From Bacilli bacterium (GTDB lineage: Bacteria; Bacillota_I; Bacilli_A; RF39; UBA660): a stretch of DNA of 59,507 nt. The translations under genes were made by a program, and so were the position numbers. Location: assembly GCA_017622175.1 (NCBI GenBank), contig JAGARQ010000009.1:1-59507 (forward strand), in the 5' to 3' direction. The notes below the pieces were generated by a model. That model saw only the letters and a program-made list of their open reading frames with translations, made no database searches and had not been told where the DNA came from. Positions 1-18,259 of this stretch are shown piece after piece (positions within the stretch are counted from its first letter, which is position 1; each line of letters opens with the position of its first letter).

Positions 1-89
1 ATTGCCAATCTAATTTTATCAATATCACTTAAATTATCATATTTTTGAATTAAGTCTATAACTTTTTTTGAATTTTTATCTAATAACAT
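1..89 (-). CDS. 5' end of an unidentified gene, cut by the window edge
   Basis: An ATG at 89 on the minus strand is preceded by AGAGGT at a normal distance and opens a frame with 29 full codons before the window ends. The visible protein starts MLLDKNSKKVIDLIQKYD and is charged, helical-looking and without a signal peptide. I do not recognise it. It lies where the rest of the ABC ATPase gene and a permease gene would be expected, so it probably belongs to unrelated DNA joined after that operon was truncated. Confidence 0.5.
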   Translation of the reverse strand, partial: MLLDKNSKKVIDLIQKYDNLSDIDKIRLA

Positions 90-140
90 AATATACCTCT
101 TTTCTTTTATTTATAAGGGTTATAAGCCACTTGTAAGTAA

Positions 141-584
141 TTATTTGTGTGTATACAGTATTCGTAGAACTCTCTGTCTCATTCCACCAGACAAACTAGA
201 AGGATACATATCTTTAAAATCATATAAACCATAAGTCTTTAATAAAGAAATAACATAATCATATGATTCACTATTTAAAGCACCTTTTGTTTCAAGCCCA
301 ATTAGACAATTATCTAAAATAGTCTTCCAAAAAAACAAGGAATCATCTTGTAGCATATAACCAATACTAATATTGTTTTTTAATATGATTTCACCACTTG
401 TTTTATTTTCTAATCCAGAAAGAATAGATAAAATAGTAGACTTACCACAACCACTAGGGCCAACAATTGAAATAAATTCATTTTTATAAACATTAAAAGA
501 AACATCTTTTAAAGCAACTATATCATTTTCTCTAGTATGATAAATTTTATTTAAATTAATTACTGTTAATAATTTATTATTCAT
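141..584 (-). pseudogene. ABC transporter ATPase, truncated after the signature motif
   Basis: This is the N-terminal 147 residues of an SsuB/TauB/ThiZ-like importer ATPase. The Walker A motif GPSGCGKST is present, as are a Q-loop region (GYMLQDDSLFFW) and the signature LSGGMRQRV. The frame then leaves the family sequence (LRILYTHK) and stops. Walker B, the D-loop and the H-loop are missing, so it cannot hydrolyse ATP as it stands; full-length relatives are about 250 residues. Its start overlaps the stop of the substrate-binding protein gene by 8 bases, the normal operon layout. No permease gene follows. The break is separate from the insertion at 979. Confidence 0.85.
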
Positions 585-978: not shown

Positions 979-993
979 TCTTAATGCAACAAA
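961..993. other. attL: left junction of the serine-recombinase element
   Basis: Host DNA runs through GCATTAGGT to the core TC at 977-978. Element DNA then starts with TC and the inverted repeat TTAATGCAACAAA (981-993). The mirror copy of that repeat is at 6315-6327. Read outward from the core, both half-sites carry TAATGCAWCA at the same offset of three bases, as expected for two recombinase subunits bound on either side of the crossover dinucleotide. Confidence 0.88.
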
Positions 994-1017
994 TATAAAA
1001 AAAACACAAAAAAGTAT

Positions 1018-1045
1018 TTAACAAAAAGAATAAATTTGTTATAAT
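1018..1045 (+). promoter_or_regulatory. Promoter of the TasA-like gene
   Basis: TTAACA (1018-1023) and TATAAT (1040-1045) are separated by 16 bases, and the -10 has an extended TGT before it. It is the first promoter inside the left end of the element, so the cargo brings its own promoter. Confidence 0.7.
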
Positions 1046-1096
1046 CAATATGTATAACATATAAAGATAGGAAGTATGTTAGGAAAGGAAATTTAT

Positions 1097-1747
1097 ATGG
1101 AAAGAAATAGAAGTTCAAAAATTATTGCAGTAGTAGCTCTAGTAGTTGCTGTGTTTGGTCTTACATTAGGATTCGCTGCATTCTCAAACACATTAACAAT
1201 TTCATCTAGTGCATATGTTAGCCCTAGTAGTGAAAATTTCAAAATCGGATTTTCAAAAAGTGCCTCAAGTGCAACAGAAACAGGTGCATTAGCAGGATCT
1301 CCAACAGGAGCTGCAACAGCAGGAAGTGCTACACTAGCAGGAACAACTGTAAGTGGTCTTAAAGCAAATCTTACAGCACCAGGAGAATCAGTATCATATA
1401 CATTCTATGTACATAATACTGGAGAATATGATGCATTCTTAAATAGTATCACATTCGAAAACGTAGCTGGAGGATCTGCTCCAAAAACTTGTACAGCAGT
1501 AGACCCAACTAAAACAACTGCAGCATTAGTAAGTGCAGCTTGTGAAGATATCTCTGTATCAGTAAAAGTTGGTAATGATGCAGCAGTAGCTGGTTCAGTA
1601 GCTGCTGTTACAGGACACTCTTTATTAAAAACAAAGAATGAAACTGTAGTTGTAACAATCTCATATGCATCAGATGGTGACAGAGCCGATGGTGACTTCA
1701 ATGTAGCATTTGGTGACTTAAAACTAGTTTACGGAACAGTTGATTAA
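1097..1747 (+). CDS. TasA/camelysin-like secreted protein (SipW-type signal peptide)
   Basis: A 216-residue exported protein. The N-terminus MERNRSSK is followed by a hydrophobic stretch ending LTLGFAAFSNTLTISSSA, the pattern of TasA/camelysin proteins processed by SipW. The mature part is rich in Ala, Ser, Thr and Val, looks all-beta, and contains SYTFYVHNTGEYDAF near the middle, a segment type common in these fibre-forming proteins. Two cysteines (KTCTA and AACED) could form a disulfide. ATG 1097 is preferred over ATG 1076 because AAAGGA lies 8 bases before it, whereas the earlier ATG has its purine tract almost adjacent. A terminator-like hairpin separates it from the signal peptidase gene, which should make it the most expressed gene of the cassette. 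Fibre formation is inferred from the family. Confidence 0.78.
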   Translation: MERNRSSKIIAVVALVVAVFGLTLGFAAFSNTLTISSSAYVSPSSENFKIGFSKSASSATETGALAGSPTGAATAGSATLAGTTVSGLKANLTAPGESVSYTFYVHNTGEYDAFLNSITFENVAGGSAPKTCTAVDPTKTTAALVSAACEDISVSVKVGNDAAVAGSVAAVTGHSLLKTKNETVVVTISYASDGDRADGDFNVAFGDLKLVYGTVD

Positions 1748-1754
1748 AATAACT

Positions 1755-1790
1755 AAGGCACAAATCAAAATTTGATTTGGTGCCTTTCCT
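1755..1790 (+). terminator. Hairpin between the TasA-like and SipW genes
   Basis: AAGGCAC-AAATCAAA pairs with TTTGATTT-GTGCCTT, with one unpaired G, a minimal loop and a short T-rich tail. No promoter is visible in the 26 bases before the next start, so it probably attenuates rather than ends transcription. Confidence 0.65.
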
Positions 1791-1816
1791 AGTATATTAG
1801 ATATAGGAGGGAAAGG

Positions 1817-2944
1817 ATGAAAAGAGGGTACAAAAAATTATTAATCTTTCAACTTATCATGTTTTTCATACTTATACTAAATAGCTTTGTTCATAATATA
1901 CTAGGTAATTATTCAACAATAATATTCTTAGTATTAACGTTAATTATTTTTAAATTCTTATTTGGTATAGAAAAAGATAGACATCGATTTACTAAAGATA
2001 TTATTTTTGACATAATTATATTTTTATTAGTGTTTTTCCTACTTTATTATTTATCAGGAATAATAATTGGCTTTGCCAGAACAGATAATTACTATAACTA
2101 TACTGGATTTACAACATTTATAATCCCTATAGTCGCAACAACAATACTAAAAGAACTATTGCGATACCAAGTAATTATGAAGTCTGAAGGAAGTAAAATA
2201 TTAACAGTACTAACTTGTTTACTATTCATTTTCTTAGATGTAACAAATCCAATTTTCTATAATGGATTCTTATCTAAGTATGATGCATTTATTTTCTTTG
2301 CACTTACACTTTTACCGGCAATAAGTTCTAACGTTGTTTGTACATATTTATCTTATAAAGTAGGTTATAAACCTAATATATTATATTTATTAGTAATTAA
2401 CTTATATCAATATTTATTACCATTAGTACCAAATCCAAATGAGTATTTAGCATCATTAATTAATTTCTTATTGCCAATACTTTTAGGATACAAATTAAGT
2501 GGTTTCTTCCGTCTAACAATAGATGAAGAAATAGAAAGAGATTATAATAAAAAAACTATGATTTCTTTAATAATTCCCACAATAATAGTAATAATATTAG
2601 TATATTTTACCTCTGGATATTTCCACTACTATGCAGTAGCAATAGCTTCTGGAAGTATGGAAAAAGTAATATCAAAAGGGGACGTTGTCATCATAGAAAA
2701 AATTGAAGAAAAATATGATGAACTAAAAGAAGGACAAATAATTGCTTATACATATAATGGTGTATTAGTTGTCCATAGAATCGTAAGAATAATAGAGGAT
2801 AAAGGTGAATACTACGTATATACCAAAGGAGACGCCAATCCAAATGAAGATAACTACGTAGTTGAACAAGATACCATAATGGGAACAGTCAGATTTGTTG
2901 TTCCATATGTTGGATTACCAACAGTATGGTTAAATGAAATATAG
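1817..2944 (+). CDS. sipW: SipW-type (ER-type) signal peptidase I with a large membrane N-terminus
   Basis: A 375-residue membrane protease. The S26 domain is at the C-terminus: nucleophile Ser280 in SGSME, His320 in VVHRIVRI in place of the bacterial lysine, and Asp339 in KGDANPNED. The Ser-His arrangement is diagnostic of the ER-type/SipW group that cleaves TasA/camelysin signal peptides. Unlike standard SipW (about 190 residues), it has roughly 230 extra N-terminal residues with about six to seven membrane segments of unknown role. GGAGGGAAAGG precedes the ATG. It is most likely dedicated to the secreted protein encoded just upstream. Confidence 0.88.
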   Translation: MKRGYKKLLIFQLIMFFILILNSFVHNILGNYSTIIFLVLTLIIFKFLFGIEKDRHRFTKDIIFDIIIFLLVFFLLYYLSGIIIGFARTDNYYNYTGFTTFIIPIVATTILKELLRYQVIMKSEGSKILTVLTCLLFIFLDVTNPIFYNGFLSKYDAFIFFALTLLPAISSNVVCTYLSYKVGYKPNILYLLVINLYQYLLPLVPNPNEYLASLINFLLPILLGYKLSGFFRLTIDEEIERDYNKKTMISLIIPTIIVIILVYFTSGYFHYYAVAIASGSMEKVISKGDVVIIEKIEEKYDELKEGQIIAYTYNGVLVVHRIVRIIEDKGEYYVYTKGDANPNEDNYVVEQDTIMGTVRFVVPYVGLPTVWLNEI

Positions 2945-2954
2945 GAGGTTGACT

Positions 2955-4403
2955 ATGATTGATAATAACGAACAAGAAATAGAAGAATTATTAGAAGAAG
3001 AACCAATTGTCGAAGAACAACCAATACTTGAAGAAACTGATGAAGTATATGATATTCAACCAGAACAATCTTCACAAGCATTAAACGAAGAAACATCTTA
3101 TCAAACAGAAGTAGTTGAAGAAGAAAATTTATCAGAAATTCAACCTGAAATACCAGTGTTTGAAGAAAAAGTAATTTCTTCAGAAGAAATAGTAGACTTT
3201 AATGAAATAGTACAAGAAACACCTCAAGAAGTACTTCCACAATACGAAGAAACATACACTAATGAAGTTCATATTGAAGAAGTTCCACAAGAAGAACTTC
3301 CAACAGAAAAGAAAGGTTTTCTATCAAGCGTAACATATAATAAGGACCGTTATGTTGATTACAGAACAAGACTAATTGGACATTCTTTAATGTTTATTGC
3401 ACTATTTGTATTAACTGTTATCTTCTTACAAGGAGCATTTGGCGTAGCAGCTTCTAAAACAATTCAATATAATGAAACAAGTAATCTAGATTATAGAGTA
3501 TATTTAAAAGAAAATAATTTCTATGACACAGATTATCTTGGTAAAAATAAAGTATATATAGCTAACTTAATTGATAATATCGAAATTAACTTCAGATATA
3601 ATTACAATATAGTTGAACCTGCAAATGTAGATTTTAATTACAATGTTGTAGCTAAACTTACAATTGCAGATGGTTCAGGAAAAAATAATTATTATGAAAA
3701 AGAATATGTTTTACTTTCAAACAAAACAGCTTCCATCAAAAACGGTACATTCTATAATTTAAATGAAAAAGTAAAAATAGATTATTCATATTACAATAGT
3801 TTAGCAAATAGCTTTAAACAACAATATGGAGTAGATACTTCTAGTAATCTAACTGTATATTTAAAAGTTAATAAGAAAACAGATATTGAAAATGCAACAA
3901 ATGCTTATGAAAATAGTACAATGTATGTAAAAATACCACTATCAGAAAAAGCAATTAATATTGAATTAAACTACCAAGATATTAATAATTCAAATTATAT
4001 TATTCAAGGTGTTGATTCAAAAACTGATAATATTATATTTGGAGTTCTATCAGCAATTAGTATTATCGCCGCATTGGTTTTTGCAATAAAAATAATTAGA
4101 TTACTTACACTATTAAGAGGAAAAAAATCAATTTATGATAAGTATGTTGATAAGATTCTAAATGAATATGATAGATTAATAGTAGAAAATGGTACTGGTC
4201 CAGATACAAAAAATAATAAAGTAATCAAAATATCAAGATTCGAAGAACTACTAGATGTTAGAGATAATTTAAAATTACCAATTATGTACTATGTAATTAC
4301 AAAACACACAAAATGTTGTTTCTACATTAAACATAATGATGATTTATACTTAATGACAATTAAAGCAGTAGATTTAGAACATGAATTAGATTCGAATAAA
4401 TAA
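2955..4403 (+). CDS. DUF5305-like two-pass membrane protein with an acidic N-terminus
   Basis: A 482-residue protein. Residues 1-130 are low-complexity and rich in Glu, Gln, Val and Pro. Then come a membrane helix (about 145-165), an extracytoplasmic domain of about 190 residues, a second helix (about 355-380) and a cytoplasmic tail. The outer domain opens with IQYNETSNLDYRVYLKEN and YLGKNKVYIANLIDNIEI, which match my recollection of DUF5305, a family often found beside SipW peptidases in archaea and Firmicutes. ATG 2955 has AGGAGG seven bases upstream and starts just after the peptidase stop, so the two are co-transcribed. The molecular role is unknown; a partner in assembling or anchoring the TasA-like product is plausible. 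Confidence 0.72.
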   Translation: MIDNNEQEIEELLEEEPIVEEQPILEETDEVYDIQPEQSSQALNEETSYQTEVVEEENLSEIQPEIPVFEEKVISSEEIVDFNEIVQETPQEVLPQYEETYTNEVHIEEVPQEELPTEKKGFLSSVTYNKDRYVDYRTRLIGHSLMFIALFVLTVIFLQGAFGVAASKTIQYNETSNLDYRVYLKENNFYDTDYLGKNKVYIANLIDNIEINFRYNYNIVEPANVDFNYNVVAKLTIADGSGKNNYYEKEYVLLSNKTASIKNGTFYNLNEKVKIDYSYYNSLANSFKQQYGVDTSSNLTVYLKVNKKTDIENATNAYENSTMYVKIPLSEKAINIELNYQDINNSNYIIQGVDSKTDNIIFGVLSAISIIAALVFAIKIIRLLTLLRGKKSIYDKYVDKILNEYDRLIVENGTGPDTKNNKVIKISRFEELLDVRDNLKLPIMYYVITKHTKCCFYIKHNDDLYLMTIKAVDLEHELDSNK

Positions 4404-4410
4404 TAAATAA

Positions 4411-4442
4411 AAATCATATCCTAAACTAGGATGTGATTTTTT
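4411..4442 (+). terminator. Terminator after the DUF5305-like gene
   Basis: AATCA-ATCCTA pairs with TAGGAT-TGATT, followed by T6. It ends 19 bases before the recombinase start and no promoter is visible in between, so the recombinase appears to depend on read-through. Confidence 0.75.
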
Positions 4443-4461
4443 ATGTACAAAAAAGGTTTAT

Positions 4462-5385
4462 ATGGATCTATATAAAGTAAGACAAGAATTAATGTTAGGA
4501 AAACAGATAACGAATGTACCATTAAGAGTAACATATTATTCAAGAGTATCCACAGATTCAAAAGAACAAATAAACTCATTAACTAATCAAGAAAATCATT
4601 TTAAGGAAATGATAAATAATAATAAAAATTGGATTTATATAGATGGATATAAAGATGAAGGCCTATCAGGAACATCATCCCAAAAAAGAAATAATTTTAT
4701 AAAAATGATAAATGACGCTAAAGAAAATAAATTTGATTTAATAATAACAAAAGAAATATCTCGTTTTTCTAGAAATACTTTAGATAGTATAAAGTATACA
4801 AGAGAATTATTATCATACGGAGTAGGTATACTGTTTTTTAATGACAATATTAATACAATTCTTCCAGATAGCGAACTTCGTTTAACATTAATGTCATCAC
4901 TTGCACAAGAAGAAATAAGAAAATTATCAGACAGAGTTAAATTTGGTATGCATGAGTCAATCAAAAAAGGGAATATATTAGGTAATCAAAAATTATATGG
5001 TTATAAAAAAGATAAAGTATTAAATAAATATATAGTAAATAAAAGACAAGCTAGTATTATTAAAGAAATATATGAATTATATGCAAATCATAATAAAACC
5101 CTAAGAGATATAATAAAAATACTTGATAGTAGAAATATTAAAACTATTAATAATAAGAATTTTTCTCCATCATCATTATCAAGATTAATTAAAAATCCAA
5201 AGTATAAAGGATATTATGTTGGTAGAAAAAGTGAAGTAATTGATTACATCACAAGAAGAGTAAAACAACTTCCAAAAGAAGAATGGATAATATATAAAGA
5301 AGAAAACATAGTCCCATCAATTGTTTCAGAAGATTTATGGAATAAAGCAAATATACGTCTAAATAAAAGAAAGAAGTTTGACTGA
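4462..5385 (+). CDS. Serine recombinase without the C-terminal zinc-ribbon region
   Basis: A 307-residue site-specific recombinase of the large-serine-recombinase type. The catalytic domain starts with YYSRVSTD (nucleophile Ser30) and continues through DEGLSGTS, ITKEISRFSRN and SLAQEEIRKLSDRVKFGMHE. A recombinase domain follows (LYGYKKDK ... SPSSLSRLIKNPKYKGYYVGR). It ends at DLWNKANIRLNKRKKFD, where relatives usually continue into a zinc ribbon and coiled coil for a total of 450-700 residues. No remnant of that region is visible in the 47 bases downstream. It is the only recombinase in the element and the likely cause of the 2-bp core duplication at its ends. The ribosome site (AAAAGG) is modest. 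Confidence 0.9.
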   Translation: MDLYKVRQELMLGKQITNVPLRVTYYSRVSTDSKEQINSLTNQENHFKEMINNNKNWIYIDGYKDEGLSGTSSQKRNNFIKMINDAKENKFDLIITKEISRFSRNTLDSIKYTRELLSYGVGILFFNDNINTILPDSELRLTLMSSLAQEEIRKLSDRVKFGMHESIKKGNILGNQKLYGYKKDKVLNKYIVNKRQASIIKEIYELYANHNKTLRDIIKILDSRNIKTINNKNFSPSSLSRLIKNPKYKGYYVGRKSEVIDYITRRVKQLPKEEWIIYKEENIVPSIVSEDLWNKANIRLNKRKKFD

Positions 5386-5406
5386 CAAATAGTTATATGT
5401 TATAAT
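5378..5406 (+). promoter_or_regulatory. Promoter of the last element gene
   Basis: TTGACT (5378-5383), 17 bases, TATAAT (5401-5406), with TGT before the -10. The -35 overlaps the recombinase stop codon. This is one of the strongest promoters in the element. Confidence 0.8.
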
Positions 5407-5432
5407 ATGCCTCGATTTAGGGGTGAATCATT

Positions 5433-6305
5433 ATGAAAAGTTTATTAGATTTTGAATTAATAACAAATGAAGTGTTTTACAGAGGTTGGCATATTTTAGA
5501 ATATATTGAACATCATCCAGATATGCCACCATTAGAAAGAGAATCAATTGAAGCAACAATTATGGAAGCATTAGTTTCAAAAAAACTAATTGATCCTAAA
5601 AAAGAGTCATTAGATTTAAGTAACTTATCAATTGTTCTAGACAAAGACCATTACTGTTATGAAGAACACCCAAGAATAAGTGGAATTCCATTATGGATGA
5701 AAGAAAAGTTTAGAAATAAAGCGGTTTATATTATTGGAAGCGTACCAATATCTTTAAGATTATCTAGACCACCATCAAAAGTAAGTAGATCATGTGTATA
5801 TGATCCAAACTATGCCATAAGTTCAATTTTTGATGATGCTACCTTTATAGAAGCAATTTATGATTCTCCAACAAGACCAGGTATCAGATTAGAAGAAACA
5901 AGACCATTTGTAGAAGTAAAAATTGATGGAGTAGACTATTTAGTTGATGTATTAACAAAAAGAATTTTAAGAACAGACTGGTTTACTAAAGAATTTAATA
6001 TGGAAATAAAAAGTTCTATAACTGTAAGTAAAGCAGATAAAGAAAGTAAAAGAAGATATCAAAATGCAATTGCAAATTCAAATAAATTAGGAGAAATGAT
6101 TCCTCTTCTTGAACCACTAATTGATACAATATCACCAAGTATGGCTGAATACCGTTATGAGTTTGAAAAAACTAAAGAAACATTTCCAGAAGAATGGAAA
6201 ATTGCCGATGCAGTTAAACAAGATATGCAACTAAGAATGTCCGAAGGTTTAGACTTTAATTTAAACTTCTTACAAAAAATCCATGAAAAGAAAAAAGATG
6301 AATAA
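5433..6305 (+). CDS. Unrecognised 290-residue protein at the right end of the element
   Basis: A soluble-looking protein with no signal peptide or membrane helix. It has a charged helical N-terminus, a central segment with RLSRPPSKVSRSCVYDPNY and FVEVKIDGVDYLVDVLTKRI, and a charged C-terminus (LQKIHEKKKDE). I do not recognise the family. It has its own strong promoter and its terminator runs into the right inverted repeat, so it is an element gene. A recombination-accessory or regulatory role is only a guess from position; it could equally be cargo. The ribosome site is AGGGGTGA. Confidence 0.7.
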   Translation: MKSLLDFELITNEVFYRGWHILEYIEHHPDMPPLERESIEATIMEALVSKKLIDPKKESLDLSNLSIVLDKDHYCYEEHPRISGIPLWMKEKFRNKAVYIIGSVPISLRLSRPPSKVSRSCVYDPNYAISSIFDDATFIEAIYDSPTRPGIRLEETRPFVEVKIDGVDYLVDVLTKRILRTDWFTKEFNMEIKSSITVSKADKESKRRYQNAIANSNKLGEMIPLLEPLIDTISPSMAEYRYEFEKTKETFPEEWKIADAVKQDMQLRMSEGLDFNLNFLQKIHEKKKDE

Positions 6306-6317
6306 TCATCTTTTTTT
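6292..6317 (+). terminator. Terminator overlapping the right end of the element
   Basis: AAAAAGATGA pairs with TCATCTTTTT around a 3-base loop and is followed by more T. The T-tract runs into the inverted repeat at 6315, so transcription from the element should stop just before the disrupted host gene. Confidence 0.8.
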
Positions 6318-6345
6318 GTTGCATTAACATCAAATAATGAAACAA
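6315..6345. other. attR: right junction of the serine-recombinase element
   Basis: The inverted repeat TTTGTTGCATTAA (6315-6327) is followed by CA and the core TC (6330-6331), then host sequence AAATAATGAAAC. The inner half-site carries TAATGCAACA and the outer half-site TAATGAAACA at the same spacing from the core as in attL. Confidence 0.88.
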
Positions 6346-6916
6346 AATCTCCAACTCCTCCGATAAAAGTCCCACTCATTGCTGCAAAAGCAACGGATGT
6401 ATCTAACGTTAATTCTGTATCAGGATTAATTCCATTTTGTTTAAGAGAATATTTAAGTGTCATTTCTGGCATTCCATAAGCACGCCCTGCAATAATTGTT
6501 TTTCCTTTTAAATCATCTAAAGTAAAATTATCTATCTTTTCTCTAGATACTAAAAATGAACCATCTCTTTGAGTTAATTGTGCAAACGTTTTTAAATAAT
6601 CTTTTTCTCCACCATTATAGACATAAATAGTTGCTTCACTTCCGGAAAAACCAATATCAGCATCTCCAGACAAAACAGCTGCAGTAACTTTGTCAGCTCC
6701 ATTAGCAAGTATTAGTTCAACATCCAATCCAACTTCCTCAAAATAGCCAAGTTCTAATGCAACATATTGTGGAGCATAAAAAACAGTATGTGCAACCTCA
6801 GCAACAGTAATTTTTTTTAGATTTGAGTCTTTATTATTAAAGTTAAATAACACAGAACATGCAATAATAAATAATAATAAACACCCCAAAATATATAAAA
6901 TAATTTTCTTTTTCAT
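6332..6916 (-). pseudogene. ABC substrate-binding lipoprotein, N-terminal part (codons 1-195), split by an insertion
   Basis: The fragment starts with a lipoprotein signal (MKKKIILYILGCLLLFIIAC, lipobox Cys20). The NMT1/THI5-like fold follows: HTVFYAPQYVALELGYF, ANGADKVTAAVLSGDADIGF, and AQLTQRDGSFLVSR. The closest relatives are ThiY/RibY-type binding proteins for thiamine, pyrimidine or flavin precursors. Family sequence ends at GDFVSLF exactly at the element junction. Beyond it, translation would run antisense through the element's last gene and stop at 6155. AGGAGAG precedes the ATG. The transcript should still be made, so a truncated lipoprotein is possible. Substrate cannot be assigned. 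Confidence 0.9.
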
Positions 6917-7567: not shown

Positions 7568-7598
7568 GATTATAATAGTGTGTCGAGGCAGATAAAAC

Positions 7599-7627
7599 TT
7601 GCCAAAATCGACTTTTTGTGTTATAAT
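7599..7627 (+). promoter_or_regulatory. Promoter of the pilin-like adhesin/sortase operon
   Basis: TTGCCA (7599-7604), 17 bases, TATAAT (7622-7627), with TGT before the -10. It lies about 30 bases before the ribosome site GAAGGGGG of the adhesin gene. Confidence 0.8.
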
Positions 7628-7657
7628 ATAGCCACATTTAGTGAAGGGGGAAATAAT

Positions 7658-9178
7658 ATGAAAAAGTTAACACAATTAACAAAATCAATTCTATTAGTAT
7701 TAATTAGTGCAGCAATCTTATTTACATCTCTTAATACTAGCGCAGTTGCTTCATCAATTCAACTAGGTGGAGCAGAAACAGTACCAGGTTATGTAGCTGG
7801 AGTAAAATTTACTACAAAAACAAAGACTGATGGTACATTATTATACTGTCTTAACATGAATAAGAAGACAGCAAAATATATCACTGCAAATTTAGCTGGT
7901 GAAAAAGATGCCGGAGTAGCATATATTGTTACAAATGGTTATCCAAATAAGTCTTTTACAGGAGATAGATTAAAAGACTATTACATCACTCAAACAGCAC
8001 TTTGGTGGTATTTAGATAACACTGCAGGTGGAACAAACCTTAGTGAAAAATTCAAAGTTACAGGTTCTGATGAACATAATTTAAGACCAACTATTAAGAA
8101 CTTAGTAGCAAAAGCAGAAGAAGCTAAAAAAGCAGGATATGCTAAAACATCATTAGCCTTAACTGCATCAAATTTCGGAATGAAATTAGATGGAAACTAT
8201 TATGTATCTGAAGAAATTTATGCTAAGTCATATAGCAATATTTCAACATATACAGTATCTGCAACAGGAGCAAACAATATTCAAGTTGTAGATGCAAATG
8301 GAAAAGCTAAAACATCATTTGGTGTTAAAGAAAAATTCAGAGTTAAAGTTCCAGTAAGTTCAGTAAGTGGAACATCATTAACTATTAATATTGCAGCATC
8401 TGCAACAGGAGTTGTTTATAAAGCGTATGAATATAAACCAACTGATAGCAGTATGCAACCAGTTACAGTTTCAATTCCAGAAAAGGAAACAGTAAATGTA
8501 ACTGCTAAGTTAGCATTAGAAATTGAATCATCAAAAGTAAGTATTGTAAAAGTAGATAAATTAACACAAAATTCAATTGCAGGTGCAACACTAGTTGTAA
8601 AAGATGCAAATGGAACTGTAAAAGCAAAATGGGTATCTACAACAAACTATCATGTAATTAGAAACTTACCAAATGGTACTTATACAGTTGAAGAAACTAA
8701 AGCACCAGCAGGATACTTATTAAATAGTAATCCAGTTAAGTTTACTATTACAAATACAAATAGAGACATCAAAATTAAATTTGAAAATACTCCAAGAGAA
8801 ACAGTAGTAAACATCATCAAAATAGATGCATCTACTGGTAATCCATTAGCAGGAGCAGTATTACTTGTAAAAGATTCAGCTGGTTCAACAGTAGCACAAT
8901 TTACATCAACTACAGAACCATATGTTTTAACAGATTTAGATAACGGAACATATACAGTAGAAGAAGTAAGTGCACCAGCAGGATATAAACATAGTACTGA
9001 AATAAAAACATTTACAATTACAGATGAAAACTTATCACATCAAATAACATTCGAAAACCATCCTGAAGTACCAGTGCCAGACACTGCATCTTCATCATTA
9101 ATTATGACATTATTAGGTATTGTAATAATTGGAGCAGGAATTAGTTTTGTTTACAAGAATGGTAAGAAAGCAAGATAA
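7658..9178 (+). CDS. TQXA thioester-domain pilin-like surface protein with two Cna-B/SpaA domains
   Basis: A 506-residue secreted protein. A Sec signal covers residues 1-32. The N-terminal thioester domain has Cys64 (LLYCLN) and the literal TQTA motif (Gln112), the pair that forms the internal thioester in TQXA adhesins. After a beta-rich middle come two Cna-B/SpaA domains (about 316-390 and 400-470), each with a VEE-APAGY segment whose Glu normally promotes isopeptide bonding. The C-terminus has a sorting signal: VPDTA (473-477), a hydrophobic helix and a Lys/Arg tail. The sortase gene overlaps its 3' end. It is likely a covalently anchored adhesin or tip pilin. ATG 7658 has GGGGG upstream; the earlier in-frame start crosses the promoter and is rejected. 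Confidence 0.9.
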   Translation: MKKLTQLTKSILLVLISAAILFTSLNTSAVASSIQLGGAETVPGYVAGVKFTTKTKTDGTLLYCLNMNKKTAKYITANLAGEKDAGVAYIVTNGYPNKSFTGDRLKDYYITQTALWWYLDNTAGGTNLSEKFKVTGSDEHNLRPTIKNLVAKAEEAKKAGYAKTSLALTASNFGMKLDGNYYVSEEIYAKSYSNISTYTVSATGANNIQVVDANGKAKTSFGVKEKFRVKVPVSSVSGTSLTINIAASATGVVYKAYEYKPTDSSMQPVTVSIPEKETVNVTAKLALEIESSKVSIVKVDKLTQNSIAGATLVVKDANGTVKAKWVSTTNYHVIRNLPNGTYTVEETKAPAGYLLNSNPVKFTITNTNRDIKIKFENTPRETVVNIIKIDASTGNPLAGAVLLVKDSAGSTVAQFTSTTEPYVLTDLDNGTYTVEEVSAPAGYKHSTEIKTFTITDENLSHQITFENHPEVPVPDTASSSLIMTLLGIVIIGAGISFVYKNGKKAR

Positions 9179-9812
9179 TAAAAAACAAAAAAGAATCTCT
9201 TCTAGTACAATAGCTGTAATCGGTTCGGTTATCCTATTAACAGGAGGATTCTTTCTTTCATATAATTACATGCAATCTAAAAAAGTAAAAGCATTTGATT
9301 ATATGGCCAATGTCTTCTATCAATCAGAGGAAGTAGAAATATTAGAACACGATGGTGAATTACAACAAGAACAAAAAGAAGAAGAACTAGGGGAAGTAAC
9401 TAATGACTATATTGGTTATTTAACAATACCAAAATTAAACCTAACAAAAGGTTTCTTAGATATGAGATCCGAGTACAATAATATAGAACAAAATATTACA
9501 GTAATTAAGGGTTCTTCTTATCCTGATAAGGAGAAAGGCAACTTTATAATTGCTGCACACTCTGGATCGGGATGGAAAGCATTCTTTAATGATCTATATA
9601 AATTATCAACTGGAGATATAGCAGAAGTATCATATAAAGGAAAAAAATATACATATAAAATTGTTAATATCTATAAACAAGATAAAACAGGAACAATTGC
9701 TATATATAGAAATTATGATAAAACAACTTTAACATTAGTAACATGTACTAATTTTGATAGTAAAACTCAAACAGTATATATAGCTGAACTACAAAACGTT
9801 GTAGAAGAATAA
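9159..9812 (+). CDS. Sortase with no arginine at the usual catalytic position
   Basis: A 217-residue membrane-anchored cysteine transpeptidase with a helix at about 16-36. The sortase core has His134 in IIAAHSG and Cys196 in LTLVTCTN. Sortases normally have a catalytic Arg shortly after the Cys strand; here that segment reads FDSKTQTVYIAEL, with Gln/Thr where Arg is expected. The gene overlaps the adhesin gene by 20 bases, so adhesin and sortase are translationally coupled and VPDTA is the probable substrate motif. ATG 9159 is my choice; a TTG at 9129 would add ten residues. A linker of about 30 Glu/Gln-rich residues separates the anchor from the catalytic domain. Confidence 0.88.
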   Translation: MVRKQDNKKQKRISSSTIAVIGSVILLTGGFFLSYNYMQSKKVKAFDYMANVFYQSEEVEILEHDGELQQEQKEEELGEVTNDYIGYLTIPKLNLTKGFLDMRSEYNNIEQNITVIKGSSYPDKEKGNFIIAAHSGSGWKAFFNDLYKLSTGDIAEVSYKGKKYTYKIVNIYKQDKTGTIAIYRNYDKTTLTLVTCTNFDSKTQTVYIAELQNVVEE

Positions 9813-9834
9813 AAACTTCATGGGGGTGAAGGTT

Positions 9835-11106
9835 ATGACACAAACAACGATACTAGATAAACTAAAAGTAATATTAGATGTATCAATGTCATCTAAGTTA
9901 TTTATAGCCGTTATTTTATTCATAATCTTAATAACTTTAGTTTCATTAACAACAAATAGAAAAAATGTTAGAAGAACTAAAATAATATATGGATTAACAT
10001 ATTTAATCATAATAGCTGCAATTATTGTTTTCTATTATGATTCGCTAGGGAAAATGTTTGACTATATGATGAACAACTTCTTCATAGTCTTATATTTTCC
10101 AAACGTAGCAGTATACCTAGCGGCTATCATCGTTACAAATATAATTGTACTAGTAAGTGTATTTAATTTTAAAACACCTAAACTAGTAAGAAATATAAAT
10201 GTAATAATATATGGAATTATAAATTATTTATTAGCATTAGTTTTAAATGTTGTTACGAAAAACAATCTTGATATATTCTCACAAACATCAGTTTATGGAA
10301 ACGCAAATGCTCAAGCTATCATTGAAGTGTCAAGTACTATATTTATGATATGGTTAGCATTCTTAGTTATCTACAAAATGATTAGAATGTATCAGAAAAA
10401 AGATGAACCAGTAAAACGAAAAGTAATTGTTAAAAAAGTAAGAAAATTACCAGAAGGAATTGTTGAAGTTCCTGTACCACTTTTTGTTAAAGGTCAACCT
10501 AAAAAAGTAGAAGAAGCAAAAACAAAAGAAGACCCCGTTATTGTCGCTACTTTTACAGATGACTTAAAATTAGAAAAAGAAGCATTAGAAAAGCAACTAG
10601 AAGAAGCAGAAAAAAAATTAAAACAAGCAGAAGAACAAATAAAGGTTCACGAAACAACAATAAAAATAAAAACAGATGAAGTTGAAGAAAAATTAAGACT
10701 TGCAGAAGAACAAATCAAAGTTCATGAAGAAACAATAAAAAATAAAGAACAAGAAAATAGTAAATTAGAACAAGAACAAATTGCTCTTCAATATGAACAA
10801 GTTCAATTACAACAAGAAAAAGCAAAACTACAACAAGAAAAAACAAAACTTCTACAAGAAAATCAAAAATTACAAGATGCAAAAGTTGAAGTGCTAGAAG
10901 TAAAAGAAGAAACTAAAGTAGATGCAACAGCAGCAATTATGAAAAACTTAGACAATATGTTTACTTTAGAAGATTACAAAATTTTAGCAACAATTCTTAA
11001 AGATAGACAAAAAAAGAAAAATGAACAAAAACTAAAAGAAGAAATCAGAAAACAAGAACAACTAAAATTTGCACAAATCCATGAAGCATATAGAAGCACA
11101 AGATAA
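9835..11106 (+). CDS. Five-TM protein with a long cytoplasmic coiled coil
   Basis: A 423-residue protein I cannot assign to a family. Five hydrophobic helices lie within the first 185 residues. A basic linker (KRKVIVKKVRKLPEGIVEVPVP) and a Glu/Lys/Gln coiled coil of about 120 residues follow. The coiled coil contains a near-repeat, LKQAEEQIKVHETTIK and LRLAEEQIKVHEETIK. It follows the sortase gene with a 22-base gap and no terminator, so it is probably in the same transcript. ATG 9835 is preferred over 9820 because GGTGAAGG sits at the right distance. A scaffold for the surface-protein machinery is a guess from context. Confidence 0.75.
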   Translation: MTQTTILDKLKVILDVSMSSKLFIAVILFIILITLVSLTTNRKNVRRTKIIYGLTYLIIIAAIIVFYYDSLGKMFDYMMNNFFIVLYFPNVAVYLAAIIVTNIIVLVSVFNFKTPKLVRNINVIIYGIINYLLALVLNVVTKNNLDIFSQTSVYGNANAQAIIEVSSTIFMIWLAFLVIYKMIRMYQKKDEPVKRKVIVKKVRKLPEGIVEVPVPLFVKGQPKKVEEAKTKEDPVIVATFTDDLKLEKEALEKQLEEAEKKLKQAEEQIKVHETTIKIKTDEVEEKLRLAEEQIKVHEETIKNKEQENSKLEQEQIALQYEQVQLQQEKAKLQQEKTKLLQENQKLQDAKVEVLEVKEETKVDATAAIMKNLDNMFTLEDYKILATILKDRQKKKNEQKLKEEIRKQEQLKFAQIHEAYRSTR

Positions 11107-16852: not shown

Positions 16853-18259
16853 ATGGTATTTTCAAACATAGTATTTTTAGTTTTGTTTCTTCCAATATTT
16901 TTAATATTCTACTTTACTTTCAAAAAAAGAAAATTTAGAAATATTATATTGCTAGTATTTAGTTTAATATTTTATGCATGGGGAGAACCAATATATATTA
17001 TTTTAATGATATTTAGTATTCTTCTTAATTACTTTTTGGCTAAAAAGATAGATGATACTAGAAAAAACAAAAAAGAATCAAAAACATATTTAATAATTGC
17101 TTTAATATTAAATATAGGTTTACTAATATTCTTTAAGTATAGTAATTTCCTAGCGGAGATAATAAACATTTTTGGCTTTAAATTACCATATTTTAATATA
17201 GCTCTTCCAATAGGAATATCATTTTATACATTTCAAGCACTATCATATGTTATTGATGTATACTGGAATAATGTTAAGGTTCAAAGAAATCCGTTATATT
17301 TAGGTTGCTACATAACTGCATTTCCTCAGTTAATTGCAGGACCAATTGTTAGATATGAAACAATTGAAGATGAATTAGATAATAGAAAAGAAAATATCTC
17401 CTTGTTTAGTGAAGGTATAAGAAGATTCATATTAGGTTTAGCAAAAAAGGTTTTAATAGCTAATTCAGTTGCTTATATAGCAGATACTTTATTTAGCTAC
17501 AGTGCAAGTGAACTTGGTTTACTTGGAACTTGGATTGCATTAAGTTCATATACATTACAAATATATTTTGATTTTTCTGGATATAGTGATATGGCAATAG
17601 GTTTAGGAAAAATGTTAGGATTTAATTTCTTAGAAAACTTCAATTATCCATATATTGCTAATAGTATTACAGATTTTTGGAGAAGATGGCATATATCACT
17701 ATCTTCATTCTTTAAGGACTATGTATATATTCCATTAGGAGGAAATAGAGTAAAAAAATATAGACATATAATTAATATAATGATAGTATGGGCACTAACT
17801 GGTTTATGGCATGGCGCATCATGGAATTTTGTTATTTGGGGAATATACTATGGCATTTTACTTCTAATAGAAAAATATATATTAAAAAAACATCTAGAAA
17901 AATGGCCAAAACTATTAAGACATACCTATGCCATACTAATAATAATGATAGGCTGGTTAATATTTAGACAAACATCAATAGTCGAAATACTTGATTATTT
18001 AAAAGCTATGGTAGGTGTTTATGGAGTAGGTTCAACTAAACTACTAAAAATAACACAAATATTCCAAATGAAATATATAATCTTCTGGACATTAGGAATT
18101 ATCTTTTCAACACCAATATACAAAAAAATATCAGATTATTTTAATAAAAGTAATAAAAGAAAATATATCTTTGACATACTATTAATTCTACTTTTTATAG
18201 TAACAATTTTTTATGTTGTTGTTGGTAGTTATAATCCATTTATATATTTTAGATTTTAA
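16853..18259 (+). CDS. MBOAT-family O-acyltransferase (AlgI/DltB-like)
   Basis: A 468-residue polytopic membrane protein with the AlgI signature. It contains YFDFSGYSDMAIGLGKMLGF, FWRRWHISLSSFFKDYVYIPLGGNR and the catalytic His320 in TGLWHGASWNFVIWG. The length is standard. It moves acyl groups across the membrane to an acceptor on the outer face and works with the DHHW protein encoded immediately upstream. There are no dlt genes nearby, so O-acetylation is more likely than D-alanylation. Confidence 0.93.
   Translation: MVFSNIVFLVLFLPIFLIFYFTFKKRKFRNIILLVFSLIFYAWGEPIYIILMIFSILLNYFLAKKIDDTRKNKKESKTYLIIALILNIGLLIFFKYSNFLAEIINIFGFKLPYFNIALPIGISFYTFQALSYVIDVYWNNVKVQRNPLYLGCYITAFPQLIAGPIVRYETIEDELDNRKENISLFSEGIRRFILGLAKKVLIANSVAYIADTLFSYSASELGLLGTWIALSSYTLQIYFDFSGYSDMAIGLGKMLGFNFLENFNYPYIANSITDFWRRWHISLSSFFKDYVYIPLGGNRVKKYRHIINIMIVWALTGLWHGASWNFVIWGIYYGILLLIEKYILKKHLEKWPKLLRHTYAILIIMIGWLIFRQTSIVEILDYLKAMVGVYGVGSTKLLKITQIFQMKYIIFWTLGIIFSTPIYKKISDYFNKSNKRKYIFDILLILLFIVTIFYVVVGSYNPFIYFRF

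Follow-up and report, generated by a model that had tools for sequence, protein, structure and literature searches.

In an uncultured Bacilli bacterium of the RF39 lineage (UBA660), the gene for the substrate-binding protein (SBP) of an ATP-binding cassette (ABC) importer is cut in two by a 5,353-bp element of five genes, one of which encodes a serine recombinase. The stretch of DNA analysed, hereafter the window, is the whole of contig JAGARQ010000009.1 of assembly GCA_017622175.1, 59,507 nucleotides in length (contig C61 of genome G000, an assembly of 1.43 Mb in 66 contigs). With a probability of roughly 0.72, the inserted DNA is an integrative and probably excisable gene-interruption element with exchangeable cargo, resident over the long term in the window's genus. 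Three features known from such elements are found here: a recombinase of its own, an in-frame open reading frame (ORF) after removal of the element, and selection on the host gene. The element, its attachment (att) arms and the interrupted operon are laid out as follows.

979-6331, no strand: whole element, 5,353 bp, five genes; core dinucleotides TC on the + strand and GA on the - strand at 977-978 and 6330-6331
981-993, no strand: left arm of attP, TTAATGCAACAAA, symmetric partner of 6315-6327
6315-6327, no strand: right arm of attP, TTTGTTGCATTAA, with 13-bp perfect symmetry about the core
577-978, - strand: C-terminal half of the NMT1/SsuA-type SBP gene, from a weak Pfam NMT1 match and alignment with intact homologues
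6332-6916, - strand: N-terminal half of the same SBP gene, start at 6916, Pfam NMT1 1.5e-17
141-584, - strand: initial portion of the ABC ATPase gene, which is cut near residue 141

When the two SBP halves are rejoined at GA, a single gap-free frame of 327 aa results, in which the LFEP motif is restored and the junction reads GDFVSLFEPNA, matching intact homologues. The insertion target, CATTATTTGAACCTAATG, is half-palindromic and codes for this LFEP motif within the SBP gene. The joined ends of the element read TTTGTTGCATTAA-GAGATG-TTAATGCAACAAA, an inverted repeat that is perfect over 13 bp and has GA exactly in the middle; this symmetry is far beyond chance. An inverted repeat centred on the core dinucleotide is the geometry expected of a serine recombinase. 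The arms are likewise perfect, over 11-15 bp, in two congeners; in one of them (G001), where they read ...GTTACATTA and TAATGTAAC..., the change from G000 on one side is mirrored on the other. A preliminary description of this region had placed a set of three genes between element ends. The ends are indeed real att sites, but the element is larger (979-6331) and holds five genes rather than three; the split of the ABC transporter gene, with its role across the family as a landing pad with several sites, had been missed.

As for the importer itself, the PDB matches of the SBP include THI5-type and thiamin-precursor-binding proteins, and its NCBIfam matches are of sulfonate/taurine types, under cut-off. 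At the gathering threshold, neither a riboswitch nor any other known RNA was matched in the neighbourhood of the SBP gene.

Interruption of this gene is widespread in the bacterial family to which the window genome belongs, of which 243 genomes were surveyed. An SBP gene is present in 190 genomes and not detectable in 53, and in about 54 of the 190 (approximately three in ten) it is split into two to four pieces, which lie on one contig in 37 genomes and on separate contigs in 17; a few further genomes have one truncated piece only. The breaks recur at four sites, near residues 69, 94, 143 and 192, and may accumulate in one gene, which is found in three pieces in G210, G089, G214 and G160 and contains three elements in G216. 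The neighbouring genes are broken as well, the ATPase gene near residue 139 or 194 and the permease gene near residue 205. At the loci examined, a serine recombinase lies in nearly every SBP gap, usually in antisense orientation to the SBP gene, and recombinases lie inside or beside most of the ATPase and permease gaps. On the recombinase tree, the five site classes require 4 changes, which is the minimum, against a mean of 24.1 after shuffling. The elements range in size from about 1.4 to 13 kb. An MBOAT gene taken as a control (window positions 16853-18256), present in 112 of the 243 genomes, has no kilobase-scale insertion on one contig. Removal of all elements in silico, with junctions placed by a motif-based script, gave one uninterrupted SBP ORF of 323-334 aa at 48 of the 48 loci where both ends of the gene are present; at four loci, an unclear alignment at a junction prevented joining.

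In the window genome, the remainder of the ATPase gene and the permease gene are found on another contig (C25). Because that contig ends at the cut, a second element probably lies in the ATPase gene at the assembly gap; window positions 1-160 and the end of C25 (locus L211) both mark contigs that end at or near this cut. The coincidence of two contig ends there, and the fact that all sequences are metagenome-assembled genomes (MAGs), might raise the thought that contigs were misjoined at repeats. Such an artefact is highly improbable, since the same structure, with exact in-frame junctions, was assembled independently in many genomes and in independent sequencing projects (goat, sheep, rabbit, deer and others).

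The cargo of these elements is diverse. Same-site elements in other genera carry genes different from those of the window, and the whole collection includes defence-like genes (OLD/Gabija-like ATPases, kinase and SMC-like genes, GmrSD-like and HipA-like proteins), surface proteins (giant NPCBM/F5-F8 proteins and a SpaA/TED adhesin), a xanthine/uracil permease, a CoA transferase, parts of ABC-2 exporters and more. Two IMG/VR contigs classed as viral (L178 and L179) also contain split SBP genes with this recombinase, and give the impression of chromosomal DNA from a bacterium harbouring an integrative element, not of a virus.

Much of this distribution could also arise from parasites occupying a safe harbour, an account that merits somewhat less than even odds. 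The ABC operon would then be dispensable in the gut and its conserved motifs would merely serve as att sites; turnover would be fast, intact rejoining would reflect recency, and excision would have no role for the host. Such dispensability agrees with the 53 genomes in which the SBP gene is undetected, and fast turnover with the many genera that hold both split and intact members, as well as with site-143 recombinases that are identical or near-identical across genera (G065/G216 and G174/G089), a similarity that can be taken as evidence for recent horizontal movement. Both observations also speak for the integrative element favoured above. The cargo is, moreover, ordinary accessory material, the defence-like genes included. 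It is hard to explain by recency alone that all 48 genes rejoin intact and none has decayed, although recurrent loss and re-insertion could produce this pattern. Furthermore, the insertion in the window's genus appears older than the species split, yet both SBP halves have a ratio of nonsynonymous to synonymous divergence (dN/dS) of about 0.15-0.2 and are free of stops.

This last point depends on the three genomes of the window's genus, G000, G001 and G002, the latter two of which match the goat-gut MAGs RGIG1688 and RGIG2101. The element is at the same site in all three, with additional genes at its right end in G001 and G002; those of G002 (L034 9769-13576) encode, among others, several small proteins resembling WXG100 and one that contains a C39-peptidase-like domain. 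The values of dS are 0.7-1.0 for the element genes, 0.7-1.0 for the SBP gene, 1.0-1.2 for the ATPase gene and 0.7 for the nearest gene outside, all dN and dS values being NG86 estimates at fairly high divergence and thus rough. Because the dS of the element is close to that of its surroundings, with a similar species pattern in the element and the split operon, the element looks to have been inherited from the ancestor of the genus and kept vertically, which leaves a small probability for a separate insertion in each species. Both SBP halves are under purifying selection: their dN/dS is about 0.14-0.19 (0.17-0.19 for the C-terminal half), and between G000 and G001 dN and dS are 0.10 and 0.74 for the N-terminal half and 0.16 and 0.97 for the C-terminal half. 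That both halves are conserved and stop-free, although the C-terminal half no longer has the start of the gene, is most simply explained if the joined SBP gene is in use, at least sometimes.

The genes inside the element, all on one strand, are the following.

1097-1747, + strand: secreted protein of 216 aa, an N-terminal hydrophobic helix followed by a beta-rich domain; candidate substrate of the signal peptidase
1817-2944, + strand: endoplasmic reticulum (ER)-type (Ser/His) signal peptidase, extended at its N-terminus by a long hydrophobic stretch; TIGR02228
2955-4403, + strand: DUF5305 membrane protein; PF17231 and an AlphaFold2 (AF2) model
4462-5385, + strand: serine recombinase of 307 aa; Pfam, alignment to 505-586-aa relatives, PHROG integrase 4e-81
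5433-6305, + strand: protein of 290 aa of no known family, conserved across the three species of the window's genus

The first three genes stand at the positions given in the preliminary description, and two of its three assignments hold. The signal peptidase scores 80.9 bits against TIGR02228 (cut-off 51.85) in an NCBIfam profile search, and its motifs SGSM and VVHRIV supply a Ser/His catalytic pair of the kind found in ER-type enzymes; against NF046067, the equivalog for Bacillus SipW, it scores 58.2 bits, under the cut-off of 190. The DUF5305 protein scores 50.4 bits against PF17231 (cut-off 29), and its AF2 model has a beta domain between two long, probably transmembrane helices, followed by a small C-terminal domain; a fold search gave weak matches only. 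The label of TasA/camelysin for the secreted protein, on the other hand, is not supported. The TasA/camelysin family PF12389 has no match genome-wide at E 0.001 or for this protein at E 1, NCBIfam gives none either, and a comparison of the AF2 model (beta-rich, pLDDT 79) with PDB folds returned no TasA entry among the matches listed, all of which are weak. The 290-aa ORF has no match in Pfam, NCBIfam or PHROG and has homologues in 7 of 60 genomes. NCBIfam, Pfam and PHROG reveal no relaxase, conjugation or phage structural gene among the five element genes, and gene content and scores exclude a prophage, an integrative and conjugative or mobilizable element, and a staphylococcal cassette chromosome (SCC).

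The cassette of secreted protein, signal peptidase and DUF5305 protein is found in the residue-192 element of all three species of the window's genus, and also beyond it. A 6,906-bp element from sheep rumen (L129) has both SBP halves, a recombinase, the three cassette genes and an 896-aa surface protein, and at L148 the cassette lies beside a full-length recombinase next to the C-terminal SBP half, the N-terminal half being beyond the stretch examined. Other genera carry the signal peptidase gene paired with that of DUF5305 at many loci where no recombinase adjoins, so the three genes were not found at one fixed locus without element ends in most relatives. On the signal peptidase tree, element-borne copies form two groups, mixed with two recombinase-free copies of G028, and the recombinase tree also parts L129 and L148 from the window's genus. 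Because both trees split the element-borne copies, the cassette probably entered or left elements more than once. The earlier proposal of a mobile cargo with its own recombinase is largely upheld; in the window's genus, the cargo appears to be kept vertically rather than to be moving recently.

The DUF5305 gene lies directly downstream of the signal peptidase gene wherever a locus covers both, as at L013-L022 and L025-L029, where the peptidase is of the ER type with the long hydrophobic extension. This constant position in relatives suggests that DUF5305 is a dedicated partner of the extended ER-type signal peptidase. A DUF5305 gene is also located beyond the element in several species, a short distance upstream of the SBP gene (L132 12226-13266, L120 19541-20656 and L153 17202-18299). 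A further surface-protein set, consisting of a SpaA/TED-type adhesin, a sortase and a membrane protein, is located just outside the SBP gene in the window's genus (window positions 7580-11106); a similar trio at L153 11949-15283 and a similar adhesin at L089 8984-10780 sit within residue-143 elements. Surface-protein sets may therefore shuttle between element and flank.

The recombinase of the window consists of a Resolvase domain (PF00239) and a Recombinase domain (PF07508) as defined by Pfam, and ends after the latter, at ~305 aa, at the same place in the three species. Most full-length relatives have 505-586 aa, and two that were examined carry a zinc ribbon (PF13408). Other short recombinases occur at L129, L153 and L169, and on a quick tree the short or full-length state changed at least three times on well-supported branches, a count that includes the apparently frameshifted L166. 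An ORF of 45-65 aa is present just upstream of full-length recombinases at 45 of 74 loci, and none is beside the short ones. Because the directionality of serine integrases is governed via the coiled coil (PMC3783163), this ORF is a candidate directionality factor, and the short recombinases may work without such a factor. Examples upstream of full-length residue-192 recombinases (L085 7609-7803, L086 4340-4534, L073 3197-3376 and others) have no Pfam match. Residue-143 recombinases have a different conserved ORF of ~36-43 aa directly upstream (L074 4221-4337, L070 3004-3132, L076 7480-7602 and others).

On these grounds the following mechanism can be proposed. The serine recombinase would bind its short inverted-repeat site and insert the element at the half-palindromic target in the SBP gene. 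The cargo in the window would be an operon in which the ER-type signal peptidase is combined with DUF5305 as its partner and a surface protein as its likely substrate. In the integrated state, this operon would be present and the transporter subunit broken; if the same recombinase then cut the element out precisely, and presumably reversibly, the transporter gene would be whole again and the operon lost or set free. Within the window's genus, the element would by now be a long-standing resident whose recombinase has been shortened. By analogy with Bacillus TasA-SipW only, the TasA family test having failed, the operon might yield a surface fibre.

Several points weigh against an excisable gene-interruption element. 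All evidence comes from MAG assemblies, in which neither an excised form, nor an empty chromosome in the same population, nor a circular form was seen; none of the three genomes of the genus has an empty site, and a search of viral contigs for the attP pattern gave no match. The window recombinase lacks both the zinc ribbon and the coiled coil by Pfam and alignment, and no candidate directionality-factor ORF adjoins it. Because these parts are absent and no directionality factor is known here, the recombinase could be inactive. If so, the element might be a domesticated fossil, fixed in the genus with a dead short recombinase, a surface operon that has become an ordinary chromosomal one and a transporter that is lost. 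The truncation shared by the three species, the missing factor ORF and the additional cut in the ATPase gene all suit this account, which is nevertheless unlikely: the recombinase of the window's genus is stop-free with a dN/dS of ~0.2, the C-terminal SBP half is conserved though severed from its start, the att arms change together between species, and short recombinases evolved repeatedly, in elements that likewise leave an intact host gene on rejoining.

The gene-interruption reading can also be taken further. The SBP/ATPase/permease operon would then be a set of DNA-rearrangement switches with some seven att sites spread over the three genes, the majority of them served by a recombinase family of their own, and the recombinase of the window's genus, possibly factor-independent in its reduced form, would flip between a state with the surface-protein operon present and the transporter off and a state with the transporter on. 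This extension is speculative and rather unlikely.

The significance of these elements is threefold. First, one importer operon is split repeatedly at shared, precise positions, with various recombinases and cargo, across a family of uncultured gut Bacilli, which makes it testable why this operon was chosen and whether excision regulates it. Second, a complete signal-peptidase-dependent surface operon is the cargo of a 5-7-kb element, and therefore a single step could suffice to acquire or lose surface traits. Third, the zinc ribbon and coiled coil were lost independently on several occasions, in these cases with no small ORF alongside, which provides a natural test of direction control in serine integrases.

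Split genes restored by excision are best known in sporulating and nitrogen-fixing lineages. In heterocyst-forming cyanobacteria, 101 interruption elements in 22 ortholog groups, with up to four per gene, have been described, whose recombinases group mostly by position and whose cargo is not conserved (PMC4874684). Like those of nifD, fdxN and hupL, the elements described here have their own recombinase inside an ORF, fixed positions, several insertions per gene and variable cargo. They differ in belonging to another phylum with no known cell differentiation, in targeting an ABC importer operon, of which three adjacent genes contain sites, and in having only serine recombinases among those found; excision is here deduced from sequence. 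In Bacillus, excision of skin from sigK and of SPbeta from spsM restores a split gene, as does that of the comK prophage in Listeria (PMC4191935, PMC8987985), and in silico removal of the window element rejoins its split gene in the same manner. Whereas these cases involve prophages or prophage-like elements linked to particular stages of development or infection, the window element is small and without a recognisable phage structural gene. The cargo resembles Bacillus tapA-sipW-tasA in that a secreted protein gene lies beside an ER-type signal peptidase gene, but differs in having no TasA/TapA family match, an extended peptidase, a DUF5305 partner and a recombinase-bearing element around it. 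The best NCBIfam matches of the recombinase are to CcrA/B/C of SCC (CcrC, 108 bits), which is also a cargo cassette in a conserved gene; the score is far under the 900-bit cut-off, the site is another one, and a single, much smaller recombinase is present. In the open-access literature, consulted mostly at title and abstract level, no mention was found of this SBP gene as a landing pad or of a TasA-SipW-type operon that travels by means of a recombinase of its own. The closest described kind is therefore the gene-interruption element, and what is new here is the clade, the choice of an importer operon in which three adjacent genes have sites, and a cargo for surface secretion.

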